Shown here: positions 387 to 29,765 of the stretch, one piece after another
Numbering within the stretch: position 1 is the stretch's first letter
How the letters are laid out: every line of letters starts with the position of its first letter
Origin: a virus
Strand: one strand, 5' to 3'
IMG/VR virus record: IMGVR_UViG_3300011116_001022
Span: 1 to 29,765 of that record
DNA length: 29,765 nt
Program-made: the position numbers and the translations under genes
The notes under the pieces: model-generated
Seen by the model: only the letters and a program-made list of their open reading frames with translations
Told to the model about the DNA's origin: nothing
The model's database searches: none

Positions 387-710
387 ATGGTAATGCCAAA
401 GCGATCAAAGGTAACTGGTAGGTTTTTGAAGTCTGCCAGTCGCTCATCAAGTTTGCGACGCAATCCAACTCGACAAGCACTACAAGATCAACGGCAGGCT
501 TTGTTCGGCAAACTTTACGACCTTCACATGACAACCCAAGATAATGGATACACGCCAGTCCAAGCAGCTAAGAGACGCCGTTTGCGCCAGCAGCTTCAAA
601 GTGTTGAACGCAAAATAGGTCTTTCCAGCGGAGAAGACATGGACAATTTGTCTCGCAGCACACGCGCTGGACAGTATATTCACAAGAAGCGTTATGGCTA
701 TTTCCCCTAG
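387..710 (+). CDS. Small basic RRNP-motif protein, second copy
   Basis: The product is 107 residues and of unknown function. It begins MVMPKRSKVTGRFLK and has LRRNP at about residue 26, matching the preceding gene's N-terminus almost residue for residue. The C-terminal helical part differs. The frame also opens at a GTG at 369, but the ATG at 387 has GAAAGGGG eight bases upstream and aligns with the paralogue's start, so I chose it. The region after the motif is rich in Gln, Arg and Leu and probably alpha-helical; there is no transmembrane segment. A basic nucleic-acid-contacting or membrane-surface protein of the virion is possible but not shown. Confidence 0.8.
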   Translation: MVMPKRSKVTGRFLKSASRSSSLRRNPTRQALQDQRQALFGKLYDLHMTTQDNGYTPVQAAKRRRLRQQLQSVERKIGLSSGEDMDNLSRSTRAGQYIHKKRYGYFP

Positions 711-728
711 CCACTAAGGAGAACTACT

Positions 729-1025
729 TTGCATTATCCGGGATGCACTCGGGCGCACAGACACGGAGCCGCCGGTACTAAAGTCCGGCGCAATCCGTAC
801 AGCTTGCCGAAAGCAAAACGAGCCTACGCGAACTTGCAGCGAGCGAATGCCGCAATGGCACGGAATCTGGCTGCCTTAAAGCGCGTCGGTCAGTCACCAG
901 ACGGTGCAGCGCGAACTAAAGCAATTCAACGCTTGATCAATGAAAACGTTTCTATTGACCAGCGACAGCGCAAGTACCGCAATGATTATGAAAATTATCG
1001 CGGTGAACCAATTGGCAATTATTGA
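729..1025 (+). CDS. Small basic RRNP-motif helical protein
   Basis: The product is 98 residues, starting at a TTG with a perfect AAGGAG seven bases upstream. A short His-rich basic N-terminus leads to KVRRNP at about residues 18-23. A long Ala/Arg/Gln-rich helix follows (about 28-90), likely a coiled coil. It shares the basic-RNP layout with the two genes before it but not their RSKVTGRFLK element. No known domain is recognised. It ends four bases before the next gene's ATG, indicating one transcript. The function is unknown; co-expression with other RRNP proteins suggests a role in particle assembly. Confidence 0.75.
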   Translation: MHYPGCTRAHRHGAAGTKVRRNPYSLPKAKRAYANLQRANAAMARNLAALKRVGQSPDGAARTKAIQRLINENVSIDQRQRKYRNDYENYRGEPIGNY

Positions 1026-1027
1026 TC

Positions 1028-1354
1028 ATGGCAACAGTGGTACCTAATTGGATTCGTGCGAATGCGACGCGCGGACTCCTGTGGTACCACGCAGGGAAAG
1101 CTGGCGCAGGAGTGACGGCACAAACCATCCACGAAGCCGCCTTAATGGCTGCTGGATTTGTCAGCCAAGACAAAGCGCGTCGAATGGTCGGTTGGTTCGC
1201 ACGTCACATGGTCGATCTAGACGCGCCATCTGCCAAAGCAGGAGCGATGGGATTCCCCTCACATGGAGCCGTGGCACATGCCTTGTGGGGCGGTGGTTCA
1301 AGGACAACTTCAGTACGAGCGGCCGCATGGGCGGCTAGGCACGCAAGGAGATAG
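1028..1354 (+). CDS. Stand-alone phage structural domain with ALWGG motif
   Basis: The product is about 109 residues. The layout N-x-x-RG-x3-W, then G-K-x-G, a run of helix, VSxDKxRRM, WFARH, GFPS and ALWGG matches a small domain that I know from tailed-phage head-maturation protease or structural polyproteins, where it reads roughly ANARRGL-W...ARD-A-G...RM..FF-RH...GYPS-GRIAWALWGGD. Here it stands alone. The ATG at 1028 follows a TTG at 1022; neither has a strong Shine-Dalgarno site, so translation is probably coupled to the preceding stop at 1023-1025. It precedes a virion-type peptidase. The family assignment rests on motif memory only, and the biochemical role of the domain is not established. 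Confidence 0.65.
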   Translation: MATVVPNWIRANATRGLLWYHAGKAGAGVTAQTIHEAALMAAGFVSQDKARRMVGWFARHMVDLDAPSAKAGAMGFPSHGAVAHALWGGGSRTTSVRAAAWAARHARR

Positions 1355-1360
1355 CAACAA

Positions 1361-2011
1361 GTGGTCACTCCGGCAGCGAGTTTTCCGCTACCAGAACGAC
1401 AGCGAGTCACTGCACATTATGACGGTGCCCTAGCGACTGATCTACCGGCCGCTCTTGGAACTCCGTGGCTCGCTGTTTTCGATGGCACGACTCGTCCGTA
1501 TTTTTCGGGAACTGCCGGAAATGCGTTGTATCTGTTATCGACAGATGGCACGACAACAGCGTATTACGGTCATGGATCAGACGCACCGGATGTTCGGGTA
1601 ATCGGAGAAGTGGTTGCTGGTCAACAAATTGGCGCAGTCGGAATGACCGGCTACACAACGGGGCCGCACCTACACTTTGCCGTTACCGAAGACCGAGTTG
1701 TAACAACGGCCGGTGGAGGCACACTTGATCCGGCCCAATGGCTTGCCGACAGTGCGCCCGTAATCATTCAGCCAATTCAAGAACCAGTGCTTACGGCACC
1801 TGCACCGCCGCTGATGCTGCCGACTTTGCCACCAGCACCGCCAACCACAGCCATGCCGCCAACAACAGCCGTCCCGCCAACAACAGCCGTTCCGCCAACA
1901 ACAGCCGTCCCGCCAGTTGTGCCAGTAACTGCACCAGCAATTGAGACATCATCAGTCGCACTTGGTGTAGGCATTGGTGCACTTTTCCTGTTAGCGTTGT
2001 TAGAAGATTGA
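1361..2011 (+). CDS. Membrane-anchored M23-type peptidoglycan endopeptidase
   Basis: The product is 216 residues. Residues about 18-130 form a LytM/M23 zinc peptidase: a degenerate first ligand region (HYDG...TDLPA), LGTPW-AVFDG, YYGHGSD, and the diagnostic GPHLHFAV. A linker of four PPTTAV-type repeats follows, then a C-terminal transmembrane helix ending in LLALLED. Such enzymes cut peptide cross-links of peptidoglycan. The C-terminal anchor and late-gene position suggest a virion enzyme used during entry, distinct from the minus-strand endolysin. The GTG start has AAGGAG ten bases upstream. The first zinc ligand is displaced from the usual HxxxD spacing, so activity is likely but not certain. 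Confidence 0.85.
   Translation: MVTPAASFPLPERQRVTAHYDGALATDLPAALGTPWLAVFDGTTRPYFSGTAGNALYLLSTDGTTTAYYGHGSDAPDVRVIGEVVAGQQIGAVGMTGYTTGPHLHFAVTEDRVVTTAGGGTLDPAQWLADSAPVIIQPIQEPVLTAPAPPLMLPTLPPAPPTTAMPPTTAVPPTTAVPPTTAVPPVVPVTAPAIETSSVALGVGIGALFLLALLED
1838..1909 (+). repeat. Four 18-bp tandem repeats encoding PPTTA(V/M)
   Basis: Four consecutive 18-base units (core CCGCCAACAACAGCCGTY) encode the proline-threonine linker between the M23 domain and the membrane helix. The last three units are nearly identical and the first is diverged, indicating recent expansion by slippage. Confidence 0.9.
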
Positions 2012-2026
2012 ACACGGAGTGATACG

Positions 2027-2407
2027 TTGAATAACTCAGTACTTGTTGCCATTGCCGCTATTGGTGGCTTGTGGTGGTTCTCGAAAAGACCCAATCGTAA
2101 TCCACGACCTAAACGATACCGTCGAAACCCGTTTGACCGATACGAACAAGCCGATCAAAGCCTAACAACGATGGATAAAGATAACTATTATCATGGTGTT
2201 CTAAGCGAAAAGCTCGGTCAGTTACTAGAGATTCACGAAGACCTTGGTTACCCATACCCAGACCCTGCTGACAGAAAGAAATACGCTCCTAAGATGAAAG
2301 AACTGCAAGCAGATATTGCAGAACTGAAGACGTTGGTACGTCCCGATTGGTTCAAAAGCTCTATGAAGGATTACAACAGCGAGCTTCGATTCATCAAGGG
2401 TGATTAG
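2027..2407 (+). CDS. N-terminally anchored protein with double RNP motif
   Basis: The product is 126 residues. An N-terminal transmembrane helix (about residues 4-19, containing AIGGLWWFSK) is followed at once by RNRNP-like residues and then YRRNP, so the basic-RNP motif occurs twice within about 14 residues. The remainder is a soluble helical domain. The helix and motif closely match the gene at 29303 (MNNSV...AIGGLWWFSK.PNRNP), so the two are paralogues. The TTG start has ACGGAG seven bases upstream. It is the last gene of the plus-strand block before a strong hairpin. The predicted topology has the short N-terminus across the membrane and the basic motif at the inner face. The function is unknown. 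Confidence 0.8.
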   Translation: MNNSVLVAIAAIGGLWWFSKRPNRNPRPKRYRRNPFDRYEQADQSLTTMDKDNYYHGVLSEKLGQLLEIHEDLGYPYPDPADRKKYAPKMKELQADIAELKTLVRPDWFKSSMKDYNSELRFIKGD

Positions 2408-2836: not shown

Positions 2837-3097
2837 TTACGGTGCACCAATACCGATTGTGGAGCTTCGCGCAACTTCATCCACTTGTAGTCCAGCTCGT
2901 GCCATTTCCGCTCGAAGTTCAGCTTCGCTGGCTGCGACCCACATTGCAAAATGTTGGGTGCGAAGGAACAACACAAAACAGACCCAATCTTCAGCGTCCG
3001 TTGTCTCTTGCGGAGCAACGATCCAAAATCGAATAGGATGTTGTTCAACGCGTCCTATCCCATATTCCAGAGTCTGTACCAACAACCAGTCGTTCAT
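2837..3097 (-). CDS. Small hypothetical protein coupled to sigma factor
   Basis: The product is 86 residues with no family recognised. The chosen ATG at 3097 overlaps the sigma-factor stop as ATGA and has GGGAG eight to nine bases upstream. An in-frame ATG at 3115 has a weaker site and would overlap the sigma gene more. The protein has alternating hydrophobic and aromatic segments (IRFWIVAP, WVCFVLFLRT) consistent with a small alpha/beta fold, then an Ala/Glu-rich helix. Tight coupling makes a partner or modulator of the sigma factor, such as an anti-sigma function, possible, but nothing in the sequence shows this. Confidence 0.7.
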   Translation of the reverse strand: MNDWLLVQTLEYGIGRVEQHPIRFWIVAPQETTDAEDWVCFVLFLRTQHFAMWVAASEAELRAEMARAGLQVDEVARSSTIGIGAP

Positions 3098-3678
3098 AAA
3101 GGAGTCTCCCGCCATTCCGAAGTTAACTCAAGCAATCGTTGTCGTGCTCTGAACACTCGTGCTTTAACAGCACTGTGGGTCTGTCCGAGGGTTCCTGAAG
3201 CGTACAAAGTCGGGAAATCAGTATCTCCCTCCGCCAGTTCCACCAGTACTTGTCCATTGGCTATTGTGTAGGCTAGTTGTCTCGTTGCACGCCATGCCAA
3301 TCGGCTTAACACCTCTCGCTCCACCTCTTGCGGGTCAGCGTGTTCATAGTCCCGCTCGGGAAGGATCGTTTCCATGCGAACACACGTTTCATGCCGCATT
3401 TGATCCCGTATCAAGTTGTGAGCGCAAACGGTCATCCACGCCACCAGCTTGTGTGCGTTCTCAAAGCTTAGAAACTGCCATTGCTGAAACGCTCGAAGCA
3501 ACACTTTTTGGGTGATATCGTCCGCGTCTACCGTTGGCGTGAACTGCGCCCACCGATGCACGACCGCTCCTCGAACAATATGGAGACATGCGGGCAACAC
3601 ATCGTCAAACCTTGGGCGGGTACCTTGTTGTTGGCAAATCTCGTGTAAACGAGCCATTTGCGTCTCAAGATTTGTCAT
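3094..3678 (-). CDS. ECF-type RNA polymerase sigma factor
   Basis: The product is 194 residues, the usual size for an extracytoplasmic-function sigma factor. Region 2 is clear: DADDITQKVLLRAF, then LVAWMTVCAHNLIRDQMR, matching the conserved DAEDLVQ...WL..IA.N...D..R pattern that binds the -10 element and core polymerase. Region 4 shows GTLGQTHSAVKARVFRARQRLLEL, the helix-turn-helix that reads the -35 element. The ATG at 3678 overlaps the nuclease stop as ATGA; a GTG at 3723 would add 15 residues. It sits at the end of the replication operon. A virus-encoded sigma would redirect host polymerase, perhaps to late genes; the target promoters are not identifiable here. Confidence 0.85.
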   Translation of the reverse strand: MTNLETQMARLHEICQQQGTRPRFDDVLPACLHIVRGAVVHRWAQFTPTVDADDITQKVLLRAFQQWQFLSFENAHKLVAWMTVCAHNLIRDQMRHETCVRMETILPERDYEHADPQEVEREVLSRLAWRATRQLAYTIANGQVLVELAEGDTDFPTLYASGTLGQTHSAVKARVFRARQRLLELTSEWRETPL

Positions 3679-4397
3679 CGGCGCAATCGGTCGGATTGGA
3701 ATGAACTGGCGAAACTTTCCCACGGATTCACGACCTCGGTTGTACGTCCCGAACCATCGCTACCAGTGAGTTTCGCGCCAGCACCTTTTCGCTGCTTTGC
3801 CCCATATAGACGATGCGACAACGCTTCCGCAAAAAGCGTCACCCAATCAACATCCGCCAAATCCCGCACAACCGTCCACCCATCTAATGGAGTCCCTGTT
3901 AACGAAGAAAGCACGGGAACTACGTAGAAGTTTTCTTTCTCCGTAGGATACGGAGCAATGAACAATGTTTTTACACGCGACAGCAGCGAGACGAAATATC
4001 GCGACTCGTCCTCTGCGTACGGTGTTCCGAACGCTTTAACAACGATAATTATTGGCACTCCTGCACGATCCAACGCCACATATTCATCGTAACTCCATCG
4101 GTCAATACCAATTAACCAATAGTTGCGTTTTTTCAGTTTCCACATACCAGAGGGTTTTGTTTTTGCTTCTATTCCAATCACAATATTGGAAACAAACGCA
4201 AACATATCTGGTGCCAAATACTCCGCATCGTCAATCATGACAACTGGTGTTTTGTTGTTGTCAATGATATAGCCACATGTCACATTATTTTCGGCAATGC
4301 TTTTGACAAGCTCGACTATCAACGCATCATGAGTCATATTCTTGGCTTGCCAAGAATCATGACGCTTAACCAAAGCTGGTTTGCTGTTAGTACTCAT
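3675..4397 (-). CDS. PD-(D/E)XK-family nuclease, putative
   Basis: The product is 240 residues. The core APDMFAFVSNIVIGIEAKTK (about residues 62-81) followed by a GMWKLKKRNYWLIGID strand-helix segment and GVPIIIVV fits the PD-(D/E)XK fold, with D in PDM and E-x-K in IEAKTK as metal and catalytic residues. This fold includes Holliday-junction resolvases and phage exonucleases. The C-terminal 60 residues are a low-complexity basic and Gly/Ser tail. The ATG at 4397 overlaps the preceding stop as ATGA and has GAAGG upstream. Close linkage to a RecT-like annealing protein suggests a recombination exonuclease or a resolvase; the sequence does not decide which. Confidence 0.7.
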   Translation of the reverse strand: MSTNSKPALVKRHDSWQAKNMTHDALIVELVKSIAENNVTCGYIIDNNKTPVVMIDDAEYLAPDMFAFVSNIVIGIEAKTKPSGMWKLKKRNYWLIGIDRWSYDEYVALDRAGVPIIIVVKAFGTPYAEDESRYFVSLLSRVKTLFIAPYPTEKENFYVVPVLSSLTGTPLDGWTVVRDLADVDWVTLFAEALSHRLYGAKQRKGAGAKLTGSDGSGRTTEVVNPWESFASSFQSDRLRR

Positions 4398-11213: not shown

Positions 11214-11738
11214 GTGGCGTTGTATCGCAGGGGACAAGTACTCGGGCTTAACGTTGGGCGTGGAGTTGCTGCCGCGTCTGGCGTGTATCTTGGCAAGAAC
11301 ATTGGTTCGCTTCTGACCTCGTTTCTTCCGGGGGTGGCCGCGATGGTTGACAACGTCCGTCCCGGACTGTCTACCGGCGCGATGGAAACAATCGGAGCTG
11401 CGCTGAACGCAGCATTTATTGCACCAATGCTTCCGATTTCCGATCAGTACAAGGGTGATTTGATCCTCGGTTCGACGGCTATTGCCGCATCCGATGTAAT
11501 TGCGTCTTTGGTTGGACAGGTCAATCTTCTTCAGGGGACTCCCAACTTCGCCAGCCGAGTCAGCTCCATGACCGGCCGCGCCGCTACCCCGATGGCAATG
11601 CCGTCGGCCCGTGCCACGCTTCCTCCGCCCTCGATGGGCGGTGGGTATTCGAACATGGCATCAGTTGGCTCTGGACAGGTCGCACAGCAGCAGATGTCAA
11701 CGTCTCAGCTGTTGGGCGTGGGAACGATGGGTTTCTAA
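11214..11738 (+). CDS. Hydrophobic virion or scaffold protein before capsid gene
   Basis: The product is 174 residues from a GTG start with GGAGG seven bases upstream. The first 110 residues are Gly/Ala/Leu-rich with several hydrophobic segments (VGRGVAAASGVYLGKNIGSLLTSFLPGVAAM, LGSTAIAASDVIASLVG), suggesting membrane insertion or a compact hydrophobic helical fold. The C-terminal 60 residues are Met/Ser/Pro-rich and flexible. No family is recognised. Its place directly before the capsid candidate fits a minor capsid, membrane-associated or scaffolding protein. The leader between 11098 and 11213 holds no other gene that I can support. Confidence 0.75.
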   Translation: MALYRRGQVLGLNVGRGVAAASGVYLGKNIGSLLTSFLPGVAAMVDNVRPGLSTGAMETIGAALNAAFIAPMLPISDQYKGDLILGSTAIAASDVIASLVGQVNLLQGTPNFASRVSSMTGRAATPMAMPSARATLPPPSMGGGYSNMASVGSGQVAQQQMSTSQLLGVGTMGF

Positions 11739-11764: not shown

Positions 11765-12880
11765 GTGGCAAAGCGTCAGACTCTCCGACATCCAGTCTCG
11801 ATCACTTGGAGTGCAAACGGGTCGTTTTCGCTCGATTTGTCGAATAAGCCGCAGACCATTTGCGGCATGTGGTTGATCGTTCGTCCATCTTCCGTTAGCA
11901 CTACTGGGACTCCCGGCACTTATAACGACGGTTACGACCGTGTTATTTCGTCGATGACTCTTTCAGGAGCTGGACACACTTATTTCCAAGCTCTCGATAT
12001 GCGTACCTTCTACTACCACCAGCGACATTTCTTGCAGTGGTTGTCGCCGAAGCGGCCCGCTCCTGTCGCTGCATCACAAACCAATGTGTACGGGCCTCAG
12101 TACGCGTATTACATCCATTTCGGCGTTTCGCCTTTGGTCTTCAATGGAGCGACGGGGCGGCTTGACGAAAACCGATGGGATTTGTCCGGTGGCATCGCAC
12201 CCTCCACTGGCGGAAACCTGACCATCACCGGCAATTTCGGGGGCGCAAACGCAATCGGCAGTGCTGTGACGCTTAATGCCGCCACCATAGACGTTTATCT
12301 AGATTGTGTTCTGCCAGAAGCTGGTGACCCACTCGAAGCGTATTTGCCGCGAGCACTTCCGGCGTGGCTTCAGACTCAGCCATCTTTGGCCGGGACTACA
12401 AGCGCGTTTGGAACCTACGAAAACGTTCCGGTTGGCAGTCTTTTGCACTCGGTTACAGCAATGACGACGGCCGGTAGTGGGTCTCCTCGGAGTTCAACCG
12501 TTCTTAATTCTCTTCGGTTGCAGGACGTACTCGGGAGCAACACTGTCTTTGAATACGGACAGGGAGCGTTGGCAACAGATTCAATTGCGGCGGAAATCAT
12601 CACGCAGCAGGGAGACGTGTTCCCAGTCGCGGACGACGCTGGCGCGTCAACCATCGGCACGTTCACGCTTGGCACGCAGTCCGATTCAGGTTTGATCCAC
12701 CTTGACGTAGCGCAATATGCAGTGAGGGGTGATCCAATCTACGGCCTTGATCTCCGCCGCGTTGGTACAGGGGCGGTGCAGATTCAGTACGGCGTGCAGA
12801 CCACTTCATCTGCCGCACTCAACTTTTTCTACCGCAGGTACGATTTCAATTTGGCGCATCCGAGCAACGCCGGTAAGTAA
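11765..12880 (+). CDS. Candidate major capsid protein, double-jelly-roll type
   Basis: The product is 371 residues, rich in beta strands and with no signal or membrane segment. Two halves each show alternating hydrophobic strands: the first has SITWSANGSFSLDLS and a GNLTITGNFGGANAIGSAVTLNAATIDVYLD finish; the second runs from about residue 215 to a YGLDLRRVGTGAVQIQYG and ALNFFYRRYDF end. Length and strand pattern fit double-jelly-roll capsid proteins of tailless membrane-containing viruses (about 270-400 residues). The genome also encodes a matching type of packaging ATPase and no terminase. I recognise no specific DJR signature, so a different capsid fold remains possible. The GTG start has AAGGA upstream. 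A hairpin follows the gene. Confidence 0.6.
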   Translation: MAKRQTLRHPVSITWSANGSFSLDLSNKPQTICGMWLIVRPSSVSTTGTPGTYNDGYDRVISSMTLSGAGHTYFQALDMRTFYYHQRHFLQWLSPKRPAPVAASQTNVYGPQYAYYIHFGVSPLVFNGATGRLDENRWDLSGGIAPSTGGNLTITGNFGGANAIGSAVTLNAATIDVYLDCVLPEAGDPLEAYLPRALPAWLQTQPSLAGTTSAFGTYENVPVGSLLHSVTAMTTAGSGSPRSSTVLNSLRLQDVLGSNTVFEYGQGALATDSIAAEIITQQGDVFPVADDAGASTIGTFTLGTQSDSGLIHLDVAQYAVRGDPIYGLDLRRVGTGAVQIQYGVQTTSSAALNFFYRRYDFNLAHPSNAGK

Positions 12881-16394: not shown

Positions 16395-16633
16395 AACTTG
16401 TTGTAAATTGTGAAACTGGCGAGCAAGTGTTTGTCCCGTTCACGGACGAAGAACGAGAGGAACACGAACAGCGTGCTAGCAATGCAATGCCAGAGAGTGA
16501 GTCTCCGCCGGTGCCGGACACCAGCGAACTGCTGGAGAGACTTGCACAACTGGAAGGACTTGTGCAGAAGCTTGCAACTGCGAAAACAACCAAGTCGAAA
16601 ACGGTAGTTGCAGCTTCTGAAGCGTCGGCATGA
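16391..16633 (+). CDS. Small acidic helical protein downstream of spike
   Basis: The product is 80 residues. MKLVVNCETGEQ with a VPFTDEEREEHEQR helix matches a small protein type often encoded just after phage fibre genes. The middle is Pro-rich and the C-terminal half a coiled coil (SELLERLAQLEGLVQKLATAK). The ATG overlaps the spike stop as ATGA. A chaperone or trimerisation role for the spike is a reasonable guess from position and coiled-coil content, but is not shown. Confidence 0.7.
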   Translation: MKLVVNCETGEQVFVPFTDEEREEHEQRASNAMPESESPPVPDTSELLERLAQLEGLVQKLATAKTTKSKTVVAASEASA

Positions 16634-17229
16634 GCAGCGATCAGTCATTCTGGGAGCCAATTACACGCACTGCCGCTGACTCTGCTGGCATTGATCCTAA
16701 CTTGTTTGTGGCATTAATTTACGTTGAAAGTAAGTTTGATCCAGAGATTATTAGTGATGCTGGCGCGGTGGGAATTGCCCAGCTAGTTCCACGTTGGCAC
16801 CCAACGGTAGATGGACGTGATCCGTACGCTTCTCTGATATATGCTGCGCGTCTGCTTAAATCCCATTTGGATGAATTCGGTTCGGAATCTTTGGCATTAG
16901 CGGCGTATAACGCCGGTGCCGGAGCTGTCTACGGAGCCGGTATGGCAATACCGGAAAATGGGGAAACTCCCCAACTGGTTCAAGCTGTGCTTGCGTACCG
17001 CGCCGGATTAGTCGGAGCAGTGTTACCCGCACCAATTGCCGCTCCGTCAACTTCGCCCCCCGATGTCACTCCAGCACCAGCACCAGCACCCGCACCCGAA
17101 CCAGTTCCCACGCCGATTGCCACAGCAATTGGCGCAGTAGTAGCTGGGGCGAAACTAGAAGCAATTGATAAACGGGTCGTGGTTGGCGTAAGTCTCCTCG
17201 CAGTTTTATTGTTACTATCGGACGACTAA
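16630..17229 (+). CDS. Membrane-anchored lytic transglycosylase (SLT domain)
   Basis: The product is 199 residues. Residues about 10-125 are an SLT/goose-lysozyme-like domain: catalytic Glu33 in YVESKFDP, then DAGAVGIAQLVP and ALAAYNAGAGAV. Such enzymes cleave the glycan strand of peptidoglycan. A Pro/Ala linker (about 130-160) leads to a C-terminal transmembrane helix ending LLLLSDD. This is the same build as the M23 protein at 1361: enzyme, proline linker, tail anchor. A virion enzyme fixed in the viral membrane and used during entry, like the transglycosylase of tectiviruses, is likely. It overlaps neighbours as ATGA and TAATG. Confidence 0.9.
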   Translation: MSSDQSFWEPITRTAADSAGIDPNLFVALIYVESKFDPEIISDAGAVGIAQLVPRWHPTVDGRDPYASLIYAARLLKSHLDEFGSESLALAAYNAGAGAVYGAGMAIPENGETPQLVQAVLAYRAGLVGAVLPAPIAAPSTSPPDVTPAPAPAPAPEPVPTPIATAIGAVVAGAKLEAIDKRVVVGVSLLAVLLLLSDD

Positions 17230-23479: not shown

Positions 23480-23713
23480 GTGCCGTGGGAACAAGTGGCT
23501 ACTGGAACATCATTCACCACACGACCAAACTTGCCGGAGCTTGACCCAAGCAGCAGGTATAAAATGGTTATTGACTTAACCCCTAATGCGCCAGACTGGG
23601 TATTTGACTCATTCATTTCTACAATTAGTGGGCTTCTGTGGCCTTTTCCAATTGTTGCCAGCGTGTTTAGGGAAAACTCGTCAATCGTCATTGAATGGGT
23701 AGCCAAGACCTAA
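23480..23713 (+). CDS. Small membrane protein
   Basis: The product is 77 residues from a GTG at 23480 with GGAG ten bases upstream; an upstream in-frame ATG would overlap the previous gene by 26 bases and lacks a site. A polar N-terminal half is followed by a hydrophobic stretch (about residues 47-66, STISGLLWPFPIVASVF) and a short charged end. The stop overlaps the next start as TAATG. No family is recognised. Confidence 0.65.
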   Translation: MPWEQVATGTSFTTRPNLPELDPSSRYKMVIDLTPNAPDWVFDSFISTISGLLWPFPIVASVFRENSSIVIEWVAKT

Positions 23714-23976
23714 TGCCAGTATTTGCAATTCCAGCTTTGGTGTGGACTCTCCTTGGAAGTGTTGTTCTTCTGGGTTTGGGAGTTTATTTTCTTAAATACA
23801 CTTTGTATGTCGACAAACCAGCAATGATTGGTTCTGGTGTATTGCCAGCTCCTGTGCCCGGAACCGCTACTGATCCTTCCGGCGGACTCACTTTGCCCGG
23901 CGTCGGCACCCTTGGCAGTGGAGCACTGCTAATTGGAGTTGGCGCAATCGTTTTATTGTTTTTGTTGGAGGATTAA
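23713..23976 (+). CDS. Two-helix membrane protein with LLED C-terminus
   Basis: The product is 87 residues. It has an N-terminal transmembrane helix (about residues 6-28), a polar loop with Pro/Gly (GVLPAPVPGTATDPSGG), and a C-terminal helix ending IVLLFLLED. The final hydrophobic helix with an acidic pair at the very end is shared with the M23 (LLALLED) and SLT (LLLLSDD) proteins, suggesting a common membrane-sorting or insertion end. The ATG shares a base with the previous stop; an upstream ATG at 23695 is less likely. The function is unknown. Confidence 0.75.
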   Translation: MPVFAIPALVWTLLGSVVLLGLGVYFLKYTLYVDKPAMIGSGVLPAPVPGTATDPSGGLTLPGVGTLGSGALLIGVGAIVLLFLLED

Positions 23977-23977
23977 C

Positions 23978-24466
23978 ATGGCTTATCGTATGCGTCGCAA
24001 TCCGGGCGGAACTTCGGCAATTACGGGACGGAATATTGCGATTGTAATTGGAGCGTACGCCGTCTACAAAGCAGCACAAGGCGGAGCGTTGGGACTGCCA
24101 GCGCAATCACTAACCAACGCTCTTGGTGAAGCTGGCAACGCCATTTCTCGTGGCACAGCGGAAACCATTGACATTTTTTACAAGCGTGCTCCCGTGCCAG
24201 TAACTACGCCAAGTGGCACGCCCCCCGCGGCTGTTGGAACGGGCGCAGGAACAGTGACCGGAGCAAACAGGCTTAATCCCCCGGTTCCGGGAACCGCAGT
24301 TGACCTTGGTGCTTACGATCCGTCCGCCGGAGGATTTGCGTGGGACGGACAAAACGTCTTCACAATTGCGGAGCACATGATTATTGGCACCGCCCAAACT
24401 GCCGTCGAAGCGGCAGCAGCGGCGAAATTGTGGTACGCCAATAACGGGCGGTATTTGGTGTCATGA
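23978..24466 (+). CDS. RRNP-motif membrane protein with shared C-terminal domain
   Basis: The product is 162 residues from an ATG with GGAGG six bases upstream. MAYRMRRNPGG at the N-terminus precedes a transmembrane helix (about residues 18-34, NIAIVIGAYAVYKAAQGG). A Pro/Gly/Thr linker (about 70-105) leads to a C-terminal domain (VDLGAYDP...WDGQNVF...GTAQTAVEAAAAAKLWYA) that is clearly repeated in the protein at 24777. The basic motif here lies before the helix, not after it. It is a probable virion membrane protein with an exposed domain. Confidence 0.8.
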   Translation: MAYRMRRNPGGTSAITGRNIAIVIGAYAVYKAAQGGALGLPAQSLTNALGEAGNAISRGTAETIDIFYKRAPVPVTTPSGTPPAAVGTGAGTVTGANRLNPPVPGTAVDLGAYDPSAGGFAWDGQNVFTIAEHMIIGTAQTAVEAAAAAKLWYANNGRYLVS

Positions 24467-24780
24467 GGAAGCGAAGACGTTCACCAATTGATCCAGATAT
24501 AGAGTGGTTGACTGGAATCCTTCGCCGGAATCCGACGACCCAACACGCTGAAATGGCTGTAAGCCAACTTGTATCGCGGCATGGTGCCGATCATGTACAT
24601 CGGCTCCTTGCAATTGAATACGAACGCGCAGACGGATCAAGATGGCGACATGAAGCCGGAGATCGCGGCGACGGAGTCGCTCGTGAAACGCGTCCGGAAT
24701 GGCTGGTGGTTGAGCCGGGAGAGTCGCCGCAACTCACTGGCCCGATGAAGTGGCAAGACGGTAGGGGACTCGTGGGATGA
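24463..24780 (+). CDS. Soluble RRNP-motif protein
   Basis: The product is 105 residues. The N-terminus is very basic (MRKRRRSPIDPD), ILRRNP is at about residues 18-23, and a helical segment (AEMAVSQLVSRHGADHVHRLLAIEYERAD) follows, then a charged Gly/Glu/Pro-rich tail. There is no membrane helix. Start and stop overlap both neighbours as ATGA. The function is unknown; it could be a nucleic-acid- or ATPase-contacting partner because of the basic N-terminus. Confidence 0.75.
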   Translation: MRKRRRSPIDPDIEWLTGILRRNPTTQHAEMAVSQLVSRHGADHVHRLLAIEYERADGSRWRHEAGDRGDGVARETRPEWLVVEPGESPQLTGPMKWQDGRGLVG

Positions 24781-25109
24781 AAATCGCATCAGTCGTCGCA
24801 GTCGGAATTGGATTAGTTGCGTATACGGCGTACGCCGCATCAAAGAAAACTCCAGCTCCAGCAGCCCCCGGAGCACCCGCAGCACCCGGAACTACAACGC
24901 CACCAGTCGTTGTCCCTTGGGTAGACCTTGGTACGACAATGCCACGGTTTCCCGGAGTGTTTTGGAATCCCAACAACGGACAGGTAATCAATGTTGAGGG
25001 AGGGACTCTTCTTGCGTCTGGAGCGTTTCCGACTGGCACCGCGCGCACAGCCGCTGAAGCTGTCACCGTTGCACGAGTCTTCTTCTACGGCGTAACTCCA
25101 AGCGACTGA
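24777..25109 (+). CDS. N-anchored protein sharing a domain with 23978 gene
   Basis: The product is 110 residues. An N-terminal transmembrane helix (MKIASVVAVGIGLVAYTAYA) is followed by an Ala/Pro linker (about residues 25-45) and a domain starting WVDLG, with FWNPNNGQVINV and GTARTAAEAVTVARVFFYG. This aligns along its length with the C-terminal domain of the 23978 protein, so the two are paralogues. It lacks the RNP motif but has SKKTP after the helix. ATGA overlap with the previous gene. It is probably exposed on the inner or outer face of the viral membrane. Confidence 0.78.
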   Translation: MKIASVVAVGIGLVAYTAYAASKKTPAPAAPGAPAAPGTTTPPVVVPWVDLGTTMPRFPGVFWNPNNGQVINVEGGTLLASGAFPTGTARTAAEAVTVARVFFYGVTPSD

Positions 25110-25121
25110 GGATATTTGAAC

Positions 25122-25430
25122 GTGCCTGCAACTTGGAAGCAATTTTCAACGTCCGTATTGCGATCACTGCCAGTTGATGCCACGTTTACGGATCGACAGC
25201 GTGCACTAAAAGCAGCCGGTAAGTTGTGGCGCGGTGAAGTCTCCTTGAAACGCAATCCACAGAACTCGGAAATTGCGGAGTGGAAACGCAGTAGCGTTGA
25301 TCCCGAAGACGGCGAATTAGTTAACTACAAACGAACACAAGTCGACCCATTTGTGGTGTATGGCCTGTATGGTTTAGCGGCCGCCGGTTTGTATTTGCTT
25401 TGGAAACAACGAGAGATATCGTACGAATGA
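25122..25430 (+). CDS. KRNP-motif protein with C-terminal helix
   Basis: The product is 102 residues from a GTG with GAGGAT eight bases upstream; a TTG at 25116 is too near the site. The N-terminal part (ATFTDRQRALKAAGKLWRGEVSLKRNP, motif at about residues 41-44) is basic and helical. The middle is polar and the C-terminus carries a transmembrane helix (about 77-95, VVYGLYGLAAAGLYLLWK). Here the RNP motif is far from the membrane helix, so the motif is not simply part of a helix boundary. ATGA overlap with the next gene. The function is unknown. Confidence 0.75.
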   Translation: MPATWKQFSTSVLRSLPVDATFTDRQRALKAAGKLWRGEVSLKRNPQNSEIAEWKRSSVDPEDGELVNYKRTQVDPFVVYGLYGLAAAGLYLLWKQREISYE

Positions 25431-25594
25431 ATGCCATAAAACGATATTTTCCAAAAGTATCACGTAAAAAAGTTGTTCCGTATGCGATTGGCGTTGGCAT
25501 GTTGTGGGCGTTGATGAAACCGAAACGATTTCCACGGTTCAGAACTGCCAGTCCAGATATTGCGGTGTACGACGCAGTGGGGAAACAAGTCTGA
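25427..25594 (+). CDS. 55-residue membrane protein
   Basis: The product is 55 residues: a basic N-terminus (MNAIKRYFPKVSRKK), one transmembrane helix (VVPYAIGVGMLWALM), a basic segment KPKRFPRFR, then a short polar tail. Both ends overlap neighbouring genes (ATGA, TGATG), which fixes the start and supports translation. The KRFPRF segment occupies the place of the RNP motif of its neighbours but lacks NP. It is a probable small virion membrane protein. Confidence 0.72.
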   Translation: MNAIKRYFPKVSRKKVVPYAIGVGMLWALMKPKRFPRFRTASPDIAVYDAVGKQV

Positions 25595-25887
25595 TGGCTA
25601 AGAGACGACGCTACAAGCGAAATCCGCTTGACGCCAAACATCCGCTGCTTTGGGCGGGTGCAGCCGCAGTGGCGTACTGGGTATACAAACGAGCAAATAG
25701 GACAATCTCTTCTGGCCCGATGGCGCAATACACAACGCCTCGAACCGACCTTGGAAGTGCTCCCATCGCTCCGACTCCACCGGCTTACATGGTCGCCAAC
25801 GCGCAGCGGGCAAGAACTCCGGGATATATTGGGATTCCGTACGGTGCCCCAACGTGGAACGGCACCTCGTGGGAACAGGCAGTCTGA
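25594..25887 (+). CDS. KRNP-motif membrane protein before the ATPase
   Basis: The product is 97 residues. MAKRRRYKRNPLDAKHP precedes a transmembrane helix (about residues 18-31, LLWAGAAAVAYWVYK). A Pro/Ala/Thr-rich tail with a short GYIGIPYGAPTWNGTSWE end follows. The start overlaps the previous stop as TGATG, and the stop overlaps the ATPase start in the same way. Immediate coupling to the packaging ATPase makes a membrane partner at the packaging vertex plausible, as in tectiviruses where small membrane proteins mount the ATPase; this is inference from order alone. Confidence 0.78.
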   Translation: MAKRRRYKRNPLDAKHPLLWAGAAAVAYWVYKRANRTISSGPMAQYTTPRTDLGSAPIAPTPPAYMVANAQRARTPGYIGIPYGAPTWNGTSWEQAV

Positions 25888-26894
25888 TGATTGGCGGCGT
25901 TGGCGGATTGGCGAAATTGGTTGCAGCGGCGAAGATGGCTCCCGGAGTGCTCGCCGCAACGTCTGGAGACGTAAACACGGCTGATAGGTTAATCCGTGAG
26001 CTGGGGCCACAAGCGGCATCCATCGTCCTTGGTGCGGAGGGAGCATCGCTGTTTAATAGCGCGTTGCAATTCGCCGACGCCAAAGGATGGACGGTGCAGC
26101 GAGATTTGGATTTACAAGCGGGTGTGACTGCGTATCACGCCGGTTGCACCGCATGTGCCCAGTGGTACAACGCTGCCGGGGAGCGTCGAGTCGTCCGGGA
26201 TATTGTCGGATTGGACGGCGGCTTGGTGTTTGTGCTGGGAGTCCGGAAATCAGGAAAGACAGCATTGGCGGCGCGGCTTTGTGAGCTTTGGGAGCGTAAG
26301 ACCTACGCTTGGGGAATCTCACAGGACAAACTTCCCGATGGCTGGAATGAACTGCGCGTTCCGGTGGATTTGAAACCGATCCGTACCAAGCGCAAATCGG
26401 TCGTTCAGGTGATTGACGTTGATGAAGAGTTTGAAGACGATGAACCTGATGACCTTGACTCCCGTCCACGAGATTGGTTAGAGAACGCGCTGCCGCAGCG
26501 CAGCGCACTTATCGTGGATGATGCTGGCATTGTGCTTGATTCAGCGTCGTCGGGCGGAGGAGCCGTCAAAGCATTCAAACATTTGGTGCAGATTATTCGT
26601 CACTTGAATATTAATGCAGTCGTAAACGTGCAGTACGCTGCTGCCGTTACCAAATATTCGTTGGATGCCGATGCCATTTTTTTGAAACCTCCGCCAATGA
26701 TGTATCAATCAATTGAGCGGCCAGAGGTTATACCGTTCATCGAAGAAGCATTGCCGATGTGGAATGGTCTTACTGAACAGCAAAAGAAAAACCACGCTTG
26801 GGTAATATCTTCTGAATATCGCGGGCCAGTTCACATTCAGTTACCAACATTCTGGACTGATTCGCTGTCATATAACAAGCGTCGTGGTAACTAA
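25887..26894 (+). CDS. FtsK/HerA/A32-like genome packaging ATPase
   Basis: The product is 335 residues. Walker A is G118-VRKSG-K124-T125 after a hydrophobic strand (GGLVFVLG). Walker B is SALIVDDAG, and the following FKHLVQIIRHLNINAVVNVQYA and DADAIFLKPP fit the sensor and Arg-region pattern of viral packaging ATPases of the HerA/FtsK superfamily that move DNA into preformed capsids. The N-terminal 110 residues form a helical, partly hydrophobic domain with a HxxCxxC-like stretch (YHAGCTACAQW), possibly for membrane or metal binding. The ATG shares a base with the previous stop (TGATG). It is the hallmark protein supporting a tailless virus. Confidence 0.82.
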   Translation: MIGGVGGLAKLVAAAKMAPGVLAATSGDVNTADRLIRELGPQAASIVLGAEGASLFNSALQFADAKGWTVQRDLDLQAGVTAYHAGCTACAQWYNAAGERRVVRDIVGLDGGLVFVLGVRKSGKTALAARLCELWERKTYAWGISQDKLPDGWNELRVPVDLKPIRTKRKSVVQVIDVDEEFEDDEPDDLDSRPRDWLENALPQRSALIVDDAGIVLDSASSGGGAVKAFKHLVQIIRHLNINAVVNVQYAAAVTKYSLDADAIFLKPPPMMYQSIERPEVIPFIEEALPMWNGLTEQQKKNHAWVISSEYRGPVHIQLPTFWTDSLSYNKRRGN

Positions 26895-26896
26895 CA

Positions 26897-27379
26897 GTGA
26901 CTACTAGAAGCGAAACACAGCTTGCAGCATGGGTGCTACTTAGTATTTCTCAGACTGCAAATGTGTATGGGCAAATGGGTTCTAATCTAGCTCAGATTCG
27001 CACCAGTAGTCAAACACGCGAACAATGCGAAATACATCGACTCTCATACAAACCAGCAGCATCAATTGCCCTTTTGCAAGCCGCGGCACTGTCAGCAATT
27101 GCCGGTAGTCCGCTTCCGCTTCTCGCTTGTGCCACCACTATTTCCGTTCTAATAAACATCTATGAACATCAGATGCCAACGGAATACCGTAAAGAGCCAA
27201 TTAGTGCTTTGCTTGGTAGAAGCTCGCTGAAAACAGACTCGGCACAACTTGGATTAAGCCGACCGTATCAATCCGTTGTCAGTCCGTTTCTTCCAGTGCA
27301 ACGGTTACCGGGGCCACCGCCCATGAATCCTCGTATGTCAATACAATTTGCTGCAAAAACAAAGTCGGAACTGTTTTGA
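26897..27379 (+). CDS. Membrane protein downstream of the ATPase
   Basis: The product is 160 residues from a GTG two bases after the ATPase stop, without a strong ribosome site, so probably coupled. A polar helical N-terminus (about residues 1-50) is followed by a long hydrophobic region (about 54-92, IALLQAAALSAIAGSPLPLLACATTISVLINIY) that can hold one or two membrane helices. The C-terminal part is polar and ends PPPMNPRMS...KSELF. No family is recognised. It may be part of the packaging vertex. Confidence 0.75.
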   Translation: MTTRSETQLAAWVLLSISQTANVYGQMGSNLAQIRTSSQTREQCEIHRLSYKPAASIALLQAAALSAIAGSPLPLLACATTISVLINIYEHQMPTEYRKEPISALLGRSSLKTDSAQLGLSRPYQSVVSPFLPVQRLPGPPPMNPRMSIQFAAKTKSELF

Positions 27380-27380
27380 T

Positions 27381-27938
27381 ATGAACTTTGCTGGAGCTTT
27401 AGTACTTGGTGCAGGATTATGGTGGTTAAGCGGCAAGACTAGTTCAACGCAAGTTGGAGTAAAGCGCAATCCTGCTGCGTCTCCAGAAGAAATTGAAAAT
27501 CGCAAACGAGAGTTAGCGGTATTTGATGAACGATTGGCGCAACAACGCCGCCGGTTGGCGAACGAACGAAGTGCCATTGACTCTCGCAACATTGCGAGGT
27601 ATGGACGACGCTTGTTGATCGTTGAGAGTACACCGGAATTGTTAGCGGCACAGGATGCGATCAAACGGCTCGAAGTGGCACGCCGAAACGCCTTCAATGG
27701 CTTATCACTAGCTTTGCAACGTAATCCAGTCCAATCACTTGACAAGCTTGAAGCAAAGACTCGAAAACTGGCAATGGACGCGCGAGGGCCATCAGCCAGT
27801 GTCGCGTCAAAGGCAGCATATCGACGGTCGCTTGATCAGTTGATGGCAGCTCGAATTGATGCTGGCGTGCAGCGCACCTTGTTTGACATCGAACCTGCAA
27901 ACAACACTCAACGGGCTTTACCGGGACTTTTCGAATGA
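27381..27938 (+). CDS. N-anchored coiled-coil protein with KRNP motif
   Basis: The product is 185 residues. The N-terminal transmembrane helix (ALVLGAGLWWLSGK) is followed by KRNP at about residues 30-33, then a long charged coiled coil. A second QRNP at about residue 114 is followed by another helical unit (LDKLEAKTRKLAMDARG) like that after the first motif, so the protein may be an internal duplication of the anchor-motif-helix plan without the second anchor. The ATG at 27381 is chosen because the upstream frame overlaps the previous gene and the short form aligns with paralogues. Confidence 0.78.
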   Translation: MNFAGALVLGAGLWWLSGKTSSTQVGVKRNPAASPEEIENRKRELAVFDERLAQQRRRLANERSAIDSRNIARYGRRLLIVESTPELLAAQDAIKRLEVARRNAFNGLSLALQRNPVQSLDKLEAKTRKLAMDARGPSASVASKAAYRRSLDQLMAARIDAGVQRTLFDIEPANNTQRALPGLFE

Positions 27939-28963
27939 ATCCGCTCGGAGTGATCGCACTGGGTGGAGCTTTGTGGTGGTTGTCGCGGATCGGACGTAAT
28001 CCGTACGACCCAGACGCACCCATAATTGGTGGAATTGACGGTCGCTCCAGTGCTGCGATGCGTAGACTGGCAAACATGGCCGGATATACGCGATCCGTTC
28101 AAGCTGCTGCCCGAAAAGACGCTGAAGCAAAAGCAGCAGCGGCAGCGGCTGAAGTGGATGAACGAGAGCGATACAGTCCGGTGGTTGTTCCCAAAACTGT
28201 CTACAAAAAGCATGATTTCTTCATGAGACCTAATGGCGACGGATCGTTCACCCGCGTGCCAATGCGAGGTTCACGACGGCCGCAAGAAGACGGTTCTTCA
28301 CGCTACGGATTGGGGGAGCGATACCAAACCACTCAAACGCGCGAGTTTGCAGCCAGAATTGCACAAGTGCGGACGGAAGCGAACGCGCTACGCTCCGAGG
28401 AACGCCGAGTCAAAGCAGCAGCCAAGGAGCTTGGTGATACTGCACGGCGCACCTACCTTGACACCATTGAATACACCGTCAAGGAGTTGGGCGGTTCACG
28501 CGATAAAGTGGCGGCATTTTTGCCACCCGACAAACGCAAATGGATAACCCAAGAAGTCGATCAGCCGGGAACATACGTTGGTGAAGATGAAGACGGTTTC
28601 CCAGTCTTCAGCGGTTCCGAGAAACGGGTATACCGTAAACGACCAGTGACGTTTGATCCTCGCACTGGCACGCCAGTGGGACTCCACTCTGGTGAGTGGG
28701 GCAAAGCACTGGCCGAATACCTGCGAGTGCAAGAACGCAAGTGGACTAAACAACATGATCAATCGTTGATGCAACGCGATCAATACAAGCGAGAAGAATC
28801 AACGTACTATTTGGACGTTCTCAAGAACTTCGAAGCAGTACAACAACGCGCCAAATCTGCCGCTGCTGCTGAAGAAAAGATACTTCGTGATTTGGCAAAG
28901 CGAAGACAAGAGTTAGACGATCAAGCTCAAGCATTGGAACAACAAAGGTTAAAAGCCAAATGA
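27935..28963 (+). CDS. Large N-anchored coiled-coil protein with GRNP motif
   Basis: The product is 342 residues. MNPLGVIALGGALWWLSR is a transmembrane helix followed by IGRNP (about residues 20-24). The remainder is soluble: Ala-rich helix (about 55-75), a central beta-containing part (VVVPKTVYKKHDFFMRP, GFPVFSGSEKRVYRKRPVTFDP) and a C-terminal coiled coil (about 280-342, AKRRQELDDQAQALEQQRLK). It is the largest member of the anchored-RNP set. ATGA overlaps at both ends. It might be an internal virion protein linking membrane and genome or capsid; no family is recognised. Confidence 0.78.
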   Translation: MNPLGVIALGGALWWLSRIGRNPYDPDAPIIGGIDGRSSAAMRRLANMAGYTRSVQAAARKDAEAKAAAAAAEVDERERYSPVVVPKTVYKKHDFFMRPNGDGSFTRVPMRGSRRPQEDGSSRYGLGERYQTTQTREFAARIAQVRTEANALRSEERRVKAAAKELGDTARRTYLDTIEYTVKELGGSRDKVAAFLPPDKRKWITQEVDQPGTYVGEDEDGFPVFSGSEKRVYRKRPVTFDPRTGTPVGLHSGEWGKALAEYLRVQERKWTKQHDQSLMQRDQYKREESTYYLDVLKNFEAVQQRAKSAAAAEEKILRDLAKRRQELDDQAQALEQQRLKAK

Positions 28964-29280
28964 ATAACAATGTACTTGTCGTTGCGGCCGCTATTGGCGG
29001 AGCGTACTGGTTAATGCGTCGGAAGAAGCGGAATCCTATGTCGCCAGAAGCACGGCTTCGACGCGAAGAACAAAAGATTGCATCCGTACGGCGCAAATAC
29101 GGCTACAGCAGTCCGACTGACTTGATGAATCTCGCAAAATCTACCGTTGCCGGAAGAGCGCGTCTCAGAAGAAGTTATGGTAGAAGTGCATACGAACCGA
29201 TCCGGGGACAAACAGTGTTTCTCAAATCCAGCCAGATTAAAGAAAACGCTGCGCCAGTCCCACCTCGCAGACGTAAATAG
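28960..29280 (+). CDS. N-anchored basic protein with KKRNP motif
   Basis: The product is 106 residues. MNNNVLVVAAAIGGAYWLMRRKKRNP is a membrane helix directly joined to the basic motif (about residues 20-26). A basic helical domain (about 30-80) and a Pro/Arg-rich end (PVPPRRRK) follow. The N-terminus is closely similar to those at 2027, 29303 and 29674. ATGA overlap with the previous gene. The very basic soluble part could touch nucleic acid; the function is otherwise unknown. Confidence 0.78.
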   Translation: MNNNVLVVAAAIGGAYWLMRRKKRNPMSPEARLRREEQKIASVRRKYGYSSPTDLMNLAKSTVAGRARLRRSYGRSAYEPIRGQTVFLKSSQIKENAAPVPPRRRK

Positions 29281-29302
29281 TTGCCGTCAAGGACAGACAT
29301 AC

Positions 29303-29611
29303 ATGAATAACTCGGTTTTCTTCATGGTTGCAGCTATTGGTGGATTGTGGTGGTTTAGCAAAACTCCAAATCGTAATCCAGTTCGCAAGCCGCAAGGTTC
29401 ACCTGAACAACAATTAGAGAAAGCCAAGCGCGATTTGGCAATGGTACGAAAGCGTCTTGATGCATACGAAGAGATTGCTAATTCGAAACCAACGGAACGA
29501 GAACGAATGGCGGCAATGGGATTTCTCAGAAGCAGTCAGCTTTACGGTGCAGCAGCGACTCGTGAATACAATCTGAAGCGGCTTATCGGTCGCCTGTCAA
29601 TGCTTGTATAA
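29303..29611 (+). CDS. N-anchored coiled-coil protein with NRNP motif
   Basis: The product is 102 residues from an ATG with AAGGA about ten bases upstream; a longer upstream frame is a shadow of the previous gene. The N-terminus (MNNSVFFMVAAIGGLWWFSK.PNRNP) is nearly identical to that of the 2027 protein, so the two are recent paralogues. After the motif, a charged coiled coil (about 35-75, PEQQLEKAKRDLAMVRKRLDAY) and a second helical region follow. Confidence 0.8.
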   Translation: MNNSVFFMVAAIGGLWWFSKTPNRNPVRKPQGSPEQQLEKAKRDLAMVRKRLDAYEEIANSKPTERERMAAMGFLRSSQLYGAAATREYNLKRLIGRLSMLV

Positions 29612-29673
29612 AAGCAGCATTATAATGGCAACTACATCACAATTGCGCGAAGATAAAGGTTTAAGTAACGGAA

Positions 29674-29765
29674 ATGATTGACAACAAACTGCTACTGGCC
29701 GCTGTTGCTATTGGTGGAGCATATTTGCTCACGCGCAAGCGGCGCAATCCTTCCAAGCTAGACAT
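29674..29765 (+). CDS. Short N-anchored RRNP protein, runs off the window
   Basis: Thirty codons are visible: a membrane helix with AVAIGGAYLLTRK directly followed by RRNPSKLD. The N-terminal layout matches the other anchored RNP proteins. The frame is open at the window end. If the ends join, it continues as five more codons plus Met across the junction and stops at 17-19, giving 36 residues and ending 20 bases before the gene at 40. The ribosome site is weak (AACGGAA close to the ATG). Confidence 0.7.
   Translation, partial: MIDNKLLLAAVAIGGAYLLTRKRRNPSKLD

Follow-up and report, generated by a model that had tools for sequence, protein, structure and literature searches.

A short RNP motif as the apparent joint between N-terminal leaders and exchangeable bodies in proteins of a tailless-looking phage

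The stretch of DNA analyzed here, which we call the window, is an IMG/VR virus record of 29,765 bases. It is very probably a complete circle, since an ORF closes over the join, related genomes carry end repeats, and the corresponding run of genes is unbroken in a relative. Specifically, ORF 29674 (ORFs are named by their first base) crosses from the window end to its start, reading RKRRNPSKLDMLRDTY and then a stop; end repeats of 123-127 bp are found in the relatives G001, G002, and G004; and the right-end and left-end genes of the window form a single continuous run in G002. On a circular genome, the genes whose products carry the short N-terminal tag described below therefore make up one plus-strand cluster, running from 23713 to 29765 and then from 1 to 2407 (Table 1). 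A preliminary description of this DNA gave coordinates for only part of this cluster, which wraps past the window end.

The window ORFs include a P-loop ATPase, an SLT transglycosylase, and an M23 peptidase, the latter two with C-terminal anchors. Profile searches found no match to the terminase (PF03237), portal (PF04860), or S78 prohead protease (PF04586) expected of Caudoviricetes in any of five genomes, these being the window and four IMG/VR relatives (G001-G004). Since these matches are missing while the ATPase, transglycosylase, and peptidase are present, the virus looks like a tailless membrane-type phage, apparently of a previously undescribed lineage. The same four relatives were found with the capsid candidate and with the ATPase, at 72-82% identity (77-82% for the capsid candidate). 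Membership of Varidnaviria, as in double or single jelly-roll, membrane-containing phages, would call for a jelly-roll major capsid protein and a P9/A32-type packaging ATPase. We consider 25854..26894 to be likely the packaging ATPase, with its true start probably near 25887; its Walker A motif aligns to the P23-77 and PM2 P9 ATPases, but only weakly. For the capsid candidate, profile searches of the PDB returned nothing credible and hhalign detected no similarity to the capsid proteins of PM2, P23-77, and FLiP. Structure predictions for the two proteins were unusable, with pLDDT values of 36-37 (36 for the AF2 model of the capsid candidate).

Table 1. Coordinates of the tagged proteins, their untagged neighbors, and the capsid candidate with its adjoining gene in the window.
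Coordinates	Strand	Product	Leader and tag	RNP codons
40..372	+	Tagged protein, 110 aa	Leader PRRSKVTGRFLK without helix, RRNP	112-120
387..710	+	Tagged protein, 107 aa	Leader PKRSKVTGRFLK, RRNP	459-467
729..1025	+	Tagged protein, 98 aa, TTG start	Leader HYPGCTRAHRHGAAG, RRNP	789-797
1022..1354	+	Untagged protein, related proteins in 4/4 relatives		
1361..2011	+	Untagged M23 peptidase, C-terminal membrane anchor, end LLED		
2027..2407	+	Tagged protein, 126 aa	Membrane leader AAIGGLWWFSKRPN-RNP (NRNP), then second tag, RRNP	2096-2104, 2123-2131
11214..11738	+	Small membrane protein adjoining capsid candidate	Window copy without tag	
11765..12880	+	Candidate major capsid protein, 371 aa, untagged		
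23978..24466	+	Tagged membrane protein, 162 aa	MAYRMRRNP ahead of helix	23996-24004
24463..24780	+	Tagged soluble protein, 105 aa	LRRNP	24526-24534
25122..25430	+	Tagged protein, 102 aa, GTG start	KRNP in variable linker before C-terminal helix	25251-25259
25594..25887	+	Tagged membrane protein, 97 aa	MAKRRRYKRNP ahead of helix	25618-25626
25854..26894	+	Untagged P-loop ATPase	Walker A LGVRKSGKT, Walker B LIVDDAG	
27381..27938	+	Tagged protein, 185 aa	Membrane leader, KRNP; internal QRNP at module boundary	27465-27473, 27720-27728
27935..28963	+	Tagged protein, 342 aa	Membrane leader GGALWWLSRIGRNP, GRNP	27995-28003
28960..29280	+	Tagged protein, 106 aa	Membrane leader GGAYWLMRRKKRNP, KRNP	29029-29037
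29303..29611	+	Tagged protein, 102 aa	Membrane leader AAIGGLWWFSKTPNRNP, NRNP	29372-29380
29674..29765	+	Tagged protein, 36 aa if closed over join (stop in window bases 1-19)	Membrane leader, RKRRNP	29743-29751

The preliminary description had listed 13 ORFs sharing a tag written as [KRG]RNP, and all 13 exist with the tag where it was placed. Two copies had been assigned to both 2027 and 27381, which is correct for 2027, whereas the second copy in 27381 is a QRNP at residue 113, far from the N-terminus. The residue before RNP varies: across the five genomes it is R in 33 cases, N in 6, K in 4, A in 4, E in 3, and other residues in 9, so that E, S, Y, F, H, and A are among those seen at this position. 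Since this residue is usually R yet not fixed, we take the invariant core to be RNP alone rather than [KRG]RNP. Tagged proteins are 36-668 aa long and mostly small, many of the bodies behind the tag are basic, and none of the tagged bodies compared with Pfam, PHROG, and NCBIfam could be given a function.

The tag is far more frequent than composition predicts. RNP lies in the first 60 residues of 13 of the 20 cluster proteins, compared to 0 of the 28 proteins elsewhere in the window, and composition-preserving shuffling of these 60 residues gave a mean of 0.33 tagged proteins, with a maximum of 5 in 20,000 trials. The untagged members of the cluster are 23713, 24777, 25427, 26897, the ATPase, 1022, and the M23 peptidase. 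RNP is the commonest tripeptide, and each of the five other orders of its residues is found in 0-2 proteins. One membrane leader is common to six of the tagged proteins, so there are approximately seven independent N-terminal families; after this correction the excess still holds, as 7 of 14 families at ~0.0165 each gives ~1e-9 (arithmetic from the shuffle data).

We found the tag to be retained in the relatives, with 12 tagged proteins in G002, 11 in G001, 10 in G003, and 8 in G004, where shuffling of those proteins predicts 0.1-0.3. In the 23978 family, RNP is present in 5/5 orthologues with unalignable flanks, the starts being MAYRMRRNP, MNYRPYKTRRNP, MYYRNP, and MRRNP. In the 25122 family, it is again present in 5/5 orthologues, at shifting positions within a linker that is unalignable in both length and sequence. 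LRRNP is invariant in the 5/5 orthologues of 24463, and the tag is kept in 4/4 orthologues of 27935. The 11214 family is less uniform, beginning with RRNP in G002 and G003 and with GHNP in G001 and G004, and the window copy reads YRRG and has lost the tag. Judged from these alignments, RNP behaves as expected for a short linear motif that is selected at the protein level. Together, the enrichment above chance and the conservation in four relatives support the original proposal that one tag on unrelated proteins suggests a signal; neither a chance-level frequency nor a lack of conservation in homologous genomes, the findings that would have spoken against it, was observed.

Comparisons of leaders and bodies indicate that RNP is the junction of two parts, a leader at the N-terminus and a body that can be exchanged. 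Among protein pairs that share a leader, similarity stops right after the P in 41 of 53, and among pairs that share a body it starts right before the R in 3 of 3; since the pairs are non-independent and were registered on RNP for alignment, these counts describe the sharpness of the joint and not a probability. For example, G001_6694, with an HYPGC leader (HYPGCKRAHKHGAAG...RRNP), and G002_20244, with a membrane leader ending in KQRNP, are 88% identical from RNP on and 13% identical before it. G001_7104 and G002_20244, on the other hand, are identical over the last 15 leader residues and have bodies with 4% identity. The body of the 387..710 protein likewise sits behind a membrane leader in G001 (G001_7104). 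Internal RNPs coincide with module boundaries in 27381, G002_15788, and G004_22804.

The same edges are visible in the DNA. Within the window, the leader DNA of 2027 and 29303 matches up to the last RNP base (2104/29380), and a G001/G002 alignment stops at the last RNP base (G001 8558/G002 16650). An alignment of G001 and G004 starts one base ahead of the Arg codon (G001 7573/G004 23070) and continues at 93% over 830 bp. Here a whole segment differs between the two genomes, with its right edge exactly at RNP (7574 in G001, 23071 in G004); at its left edge, the leader DNA alignment extends 41 bases past the start of the Arg codon, and protein similarity ends at RNP. Breakpoints on RNP codons could mean that these codons are a DNA-level recombination joint or a residue of leader duplication with no protein role, and codon use lends this some support: Asn is encoded by AAT in 39 and AAC in 20 RNPs (13 and 1 in the window), compared to 112 and 170 in the same proteins, and Arg by CGC in 34, CGT in 13, CGG in 7, AGG in 3, and CGA in 2. 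However, beyond this mild over-use of AAT and CGC the wobble positions vary, Pro uses all four codons, the frame is constant, and RNP is kept in orthologues with unalignable flanks, which argues for selection on the protein. We therefore consider an account without a protein role quite unlikely and dropped a DNA-only motif on the basis of the wobble variation; a DNA role may coexist with protein-level selection.

The leaders closed by RNP comprise a membrane helix, an HYPGC type, and a KRSKVTGRFLK type. It had been stated that the tag mostly follows an N-terminal helix with a GG-x-W-W/Y pattern directly; this applies to 6 of the 13 proteins (2027, 27381, 27935, 28960, 29303, and 29674) and not to the rest, and among the six, 29674 has GGAYL without W. 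The accompanying statement that the tag precedes the helix in 23978 and 25594 is accurate, and in 25122 it lies ahead of a C-terminal helix. In every membrane leader called, K/R residues are absent ahead of the helix, and 1-8 of them follow it. According to the positive-inside rule, the K/R-rich flank of a membrane helix is cytosolic, and RNP in these leaders is therefore predicted to face the cytosol. The side bearing RNP is also the richer in K/R in most proteins of the pre-helix class (23978 and 25594 types). RNP is off the K/R-rich side in 6 of 20 helix calls, namely in the 25122 family, in a single 11214-family member, and in a protein of 72 aa with a doubtful helix call. Where the helix is clear, the tag is thus mostly predicted to be on the cytosolic membrane face. 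In PRD1 and PM2 virions, the cytosolic leaflet is turned toward the capsid, and the tag would face the capsid shell if virions form here as they do in PRD1 or PM2. The preliminary description lacked three points, namely the exchange exactly at RNP, the circular cluster, and the probable location of the tag on one membrane face.

The position of RNP directly after a short helix in the membrane leaders, flanked by basic residues, would also fit a biophysical element in which basic stop-transfer residues are followed by an Asn-Pro helix cap without any specific partner. However, RNP occurs equally in leaders that have no helix, before helices, and in linkers far from a helix, and the three residues are nearly invariant with their permutations unused. 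Since RNP is present without a helix, we dropped the pure helix-cap reading as very unlikely. A basic tag that binds the viral genome or a membrane phospholipid rather than a protein partner seems similarly improbable: the Arg-rich context and the many basic bodies are consistent with it, but so varied a preceding residue is not, and charge alone leaves the fixed Asn-Pro unexplained.

We tentatively favor a reading in which xRNP is a linear motif that, with its leader, docks on one assembly partner and so brings swappable bodies into the virion. RNP either closes the N-terminal leader or is found close to a membrane helix, in both cases on the predicted cytosolic side, where leader and RNP may be recognized by one partner on that face, such as the capsid shell, the packaging ATPase, or another assembly factor. 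Binding to this partner would bring any attached body into the virion, and bodies could then be swapped as cassettes, as is thought to occur behind the capsid-targeting sequence of T4-like phages. Observations that speak against this reading are the untagged proteins of the cluster, the lost tag in the window copy of the 11214 family, and the helix calls with RNP off the K/R-rich side. In T4, internal proteins are targeted to the head by short N-terminal propeptides that are then removed, and these propeptides have been suggested to be an evolutionary device for packaging varied proteins (PMC9026906). The T4 proteins with capsid targeting sequences (IPI, IPII, IPIII, and Alt) resemble the present ones in that a short N-terminal element is shared by divergent small, often basic phage proteins. 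On the other hand, T4 is tailed and has 10-19-residue propeptides and the protease gp21, whereas the genomes studied here have several unrelated leader types, including membrane helices, a different core motif, and no recognizable cognate prohead protease of the S78/gp21 kind.

The main rival to docking is that RNP marks a proteolytic maturation site: the leader would deliver or anchor a precursor, and cleavage by a protease at RNP or beside it would free the body, comparable to the processing of T4 internal proteins by gp21. Such cleavage would account for the free exchange of bodies and for their joining unrelated leaders exactly at RNP, and the RNPs at internal module boundaries are also in keeping with it. 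The untagged gene 1022..1354, in the middle of the tagged cluster, encodes as a standalone protein a domain that tailed phages carry N-terminal to the S78 prohead protease, a relationship that points toward cleavage with uncertain weight. However, PF04586 itself has no match in the five genomes, though a diverged protease could escape the profile, and the only protease recognized in the ORFs searched is the peptidoglycan-type M23. Furthermore, the LRRNP of 24463 is inside a conserved domain-like region, the residues adjoining RNP vary, and only a few residues would come off 23978 and 25594. On balance, we regard cleavage as rather unlikely.

In CdiA (VENN) and Rhs proteins (PxxxxDPxGL), homology begins or ends on the codons of a short motif and cassettes are exchanged motif to motif (PMC3150448). 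The proteins studied here share this abrupt divergence exactly at a short peptide together with cassette exchange. They differ in that CdiA and Rhs cassettes are C-terminal toxins with immunity genes, carried on very large secreted bacterial proteins, whereas the motif here is RNP, on mostly small phage proteins. Searches of the bodies against Pfam, PHROG, and NCBIfam gave no toxin match above cut-off, and there was no sign of toxin/immunity pairs. Since a defining feature of each system was not found here, we assign the RNP system to neither T4 capsid targeting nor CdiA/Rhs; by analogy, it may work like T4 targeting and the CdiA VENN junction combined. A broader version of docking, a general code in which one tripeptide on unrelated leaders is read by a single virion component and a dozen cargoes are swapped RNP to RNP and possibly delivered into the host, is conceivable but doubtful. 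If docking is correct, a compact portable signal would load proteins into a phage without a known isolate, and a peptide motif would double as a crossover point of protein evolution. Questions open to testing would then include the choice of virion proteins by membrane-type tailless phages and the diversification of cargo that host defenses may encounter.

We scanned the leader patterns across 2.9 million viral contigs and found no other tagged virus; within the collections and patterns scanned, the tag marks one virus group. Profile scans with alignments of the capsid candidate, the ATPase, and 24463 recovered only the same four relatives. Among 50,697 phage records, tblastn with the capsid candidate, the ATPase, 24463, 27935, and the leader gave no matches or matches by chance. 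The ATPase found nothing when used as a provirus probe in GTDB genomes. The membrane-leader pattern had 26 single matches there, none a convincing N-terminal tagged leader, and one MAG matched it twice through the same short ORF fragment, with a stop inside the pattern. Contig L070, which matched the KRSKVTGRFLK pattern, is a tailed-phage fragment with an endonuclease-like ORF ending in the motif at the contig edge; as it has no further match, we did not count it among the relatives. A literature search returned no paper describing an RRNP or RNP tag in phages. An N-terminal RNP tag cluster was likewise not found in the genomes of the membrane-containing tailless phages PM2, Jorvik, PRD1, P23-77, and FLiP, which resemble the window in their compact genomes, many small and often membrane proteins, spike-like genes, and lytic transglycosylase, with the weak Walker A resemblance of the ATPase to those of P23-77 and PM2; the PM2 and Jorvik genomes are approximately three times smaller. 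The RNP cluster would also offer a handle on this virus group in metagenomic data in which searches with capsid and ATPase sequences come back empty.

Directly after the RNP tag, the Arg-Asn-Pro joint between N-terminal leader and exchangeable body, we found a conserved stretch of 30-50 residues common to the larger tagged proteins. This stretch reads GAGFRDKSGKFHPIRNSxxYQPSLLDEP, with DWITTGGKHRPLRSGDGRAGDPTPYDD as the version in G003 (one of four related virus genomes, G001 to G004), and beyond it the C-termini diverge. This succession is a second level of module exchange. An RDxxGRF stretch in larger tagged bodies resembles the leader KRSKVTGRFLK, as does RSPVTGRFLKG, which lies C-terminally in an endonuclease-like ORF of an unrelated tailed-phage contig (L070).

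Protein ends also recur. In several small bodies the final residues resemble one another (xKKRxGxxP or KRYGKYP) and may form a second signal, at the C-terminus. In both peptidoglycan hydrolases and one small protein, the chain closes with a membrane helix and, behind it, a handful of residues that are acidic for the most part (LLED, LLSDD, ADED, LLDE, VLSED and LLGD across genomes), and these ends form a mirror-image pattern. Beside the capsid candidate, a small membrane protein (11214-11738) shows decay of the tag, its site reading RRNP in G002 and G003, GHNP in G001 and G004, and YRRG in the window.

Features and their locations
Feature	Window	Elsewhere	Remarks
Post-RNP stretch, larger tagged proteins		G001_3880, G001_8496, G002_17628; G003_21813, G003_24906, G003_26244	
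KRSKVTGRFLK leader and likeness	40-90, 387-437	L070:7-39	
xKKRxGxxP/KRYGKYP-like end, small bodies	387, 28960	G001_7104, G001_6694, G002_20244	
C-terminal helix, acidic end	1361-2011, 16630-17229, 23713-23976	relatives	
Standalone domain copy	1022-1354	tailed-phage loci L064:2629-4083, L065:2453-4963	roughly 90 residues
Sigma-70 region 2-like protein	3094-3723		minus strand, within minus-strand gene block; E 5.9e-7

Proteins related to the standalone domain are present in all four relatives. Tailed phages carry this domain N-terminal to an S78 prohead protease, as in Pontimonas phage phiPsal1, or as part of a protease-capsid fusion, as in Synechococcus phage S-CBS3. The Sigma-70 region 2-like protein is possibly a viral transcription factor.
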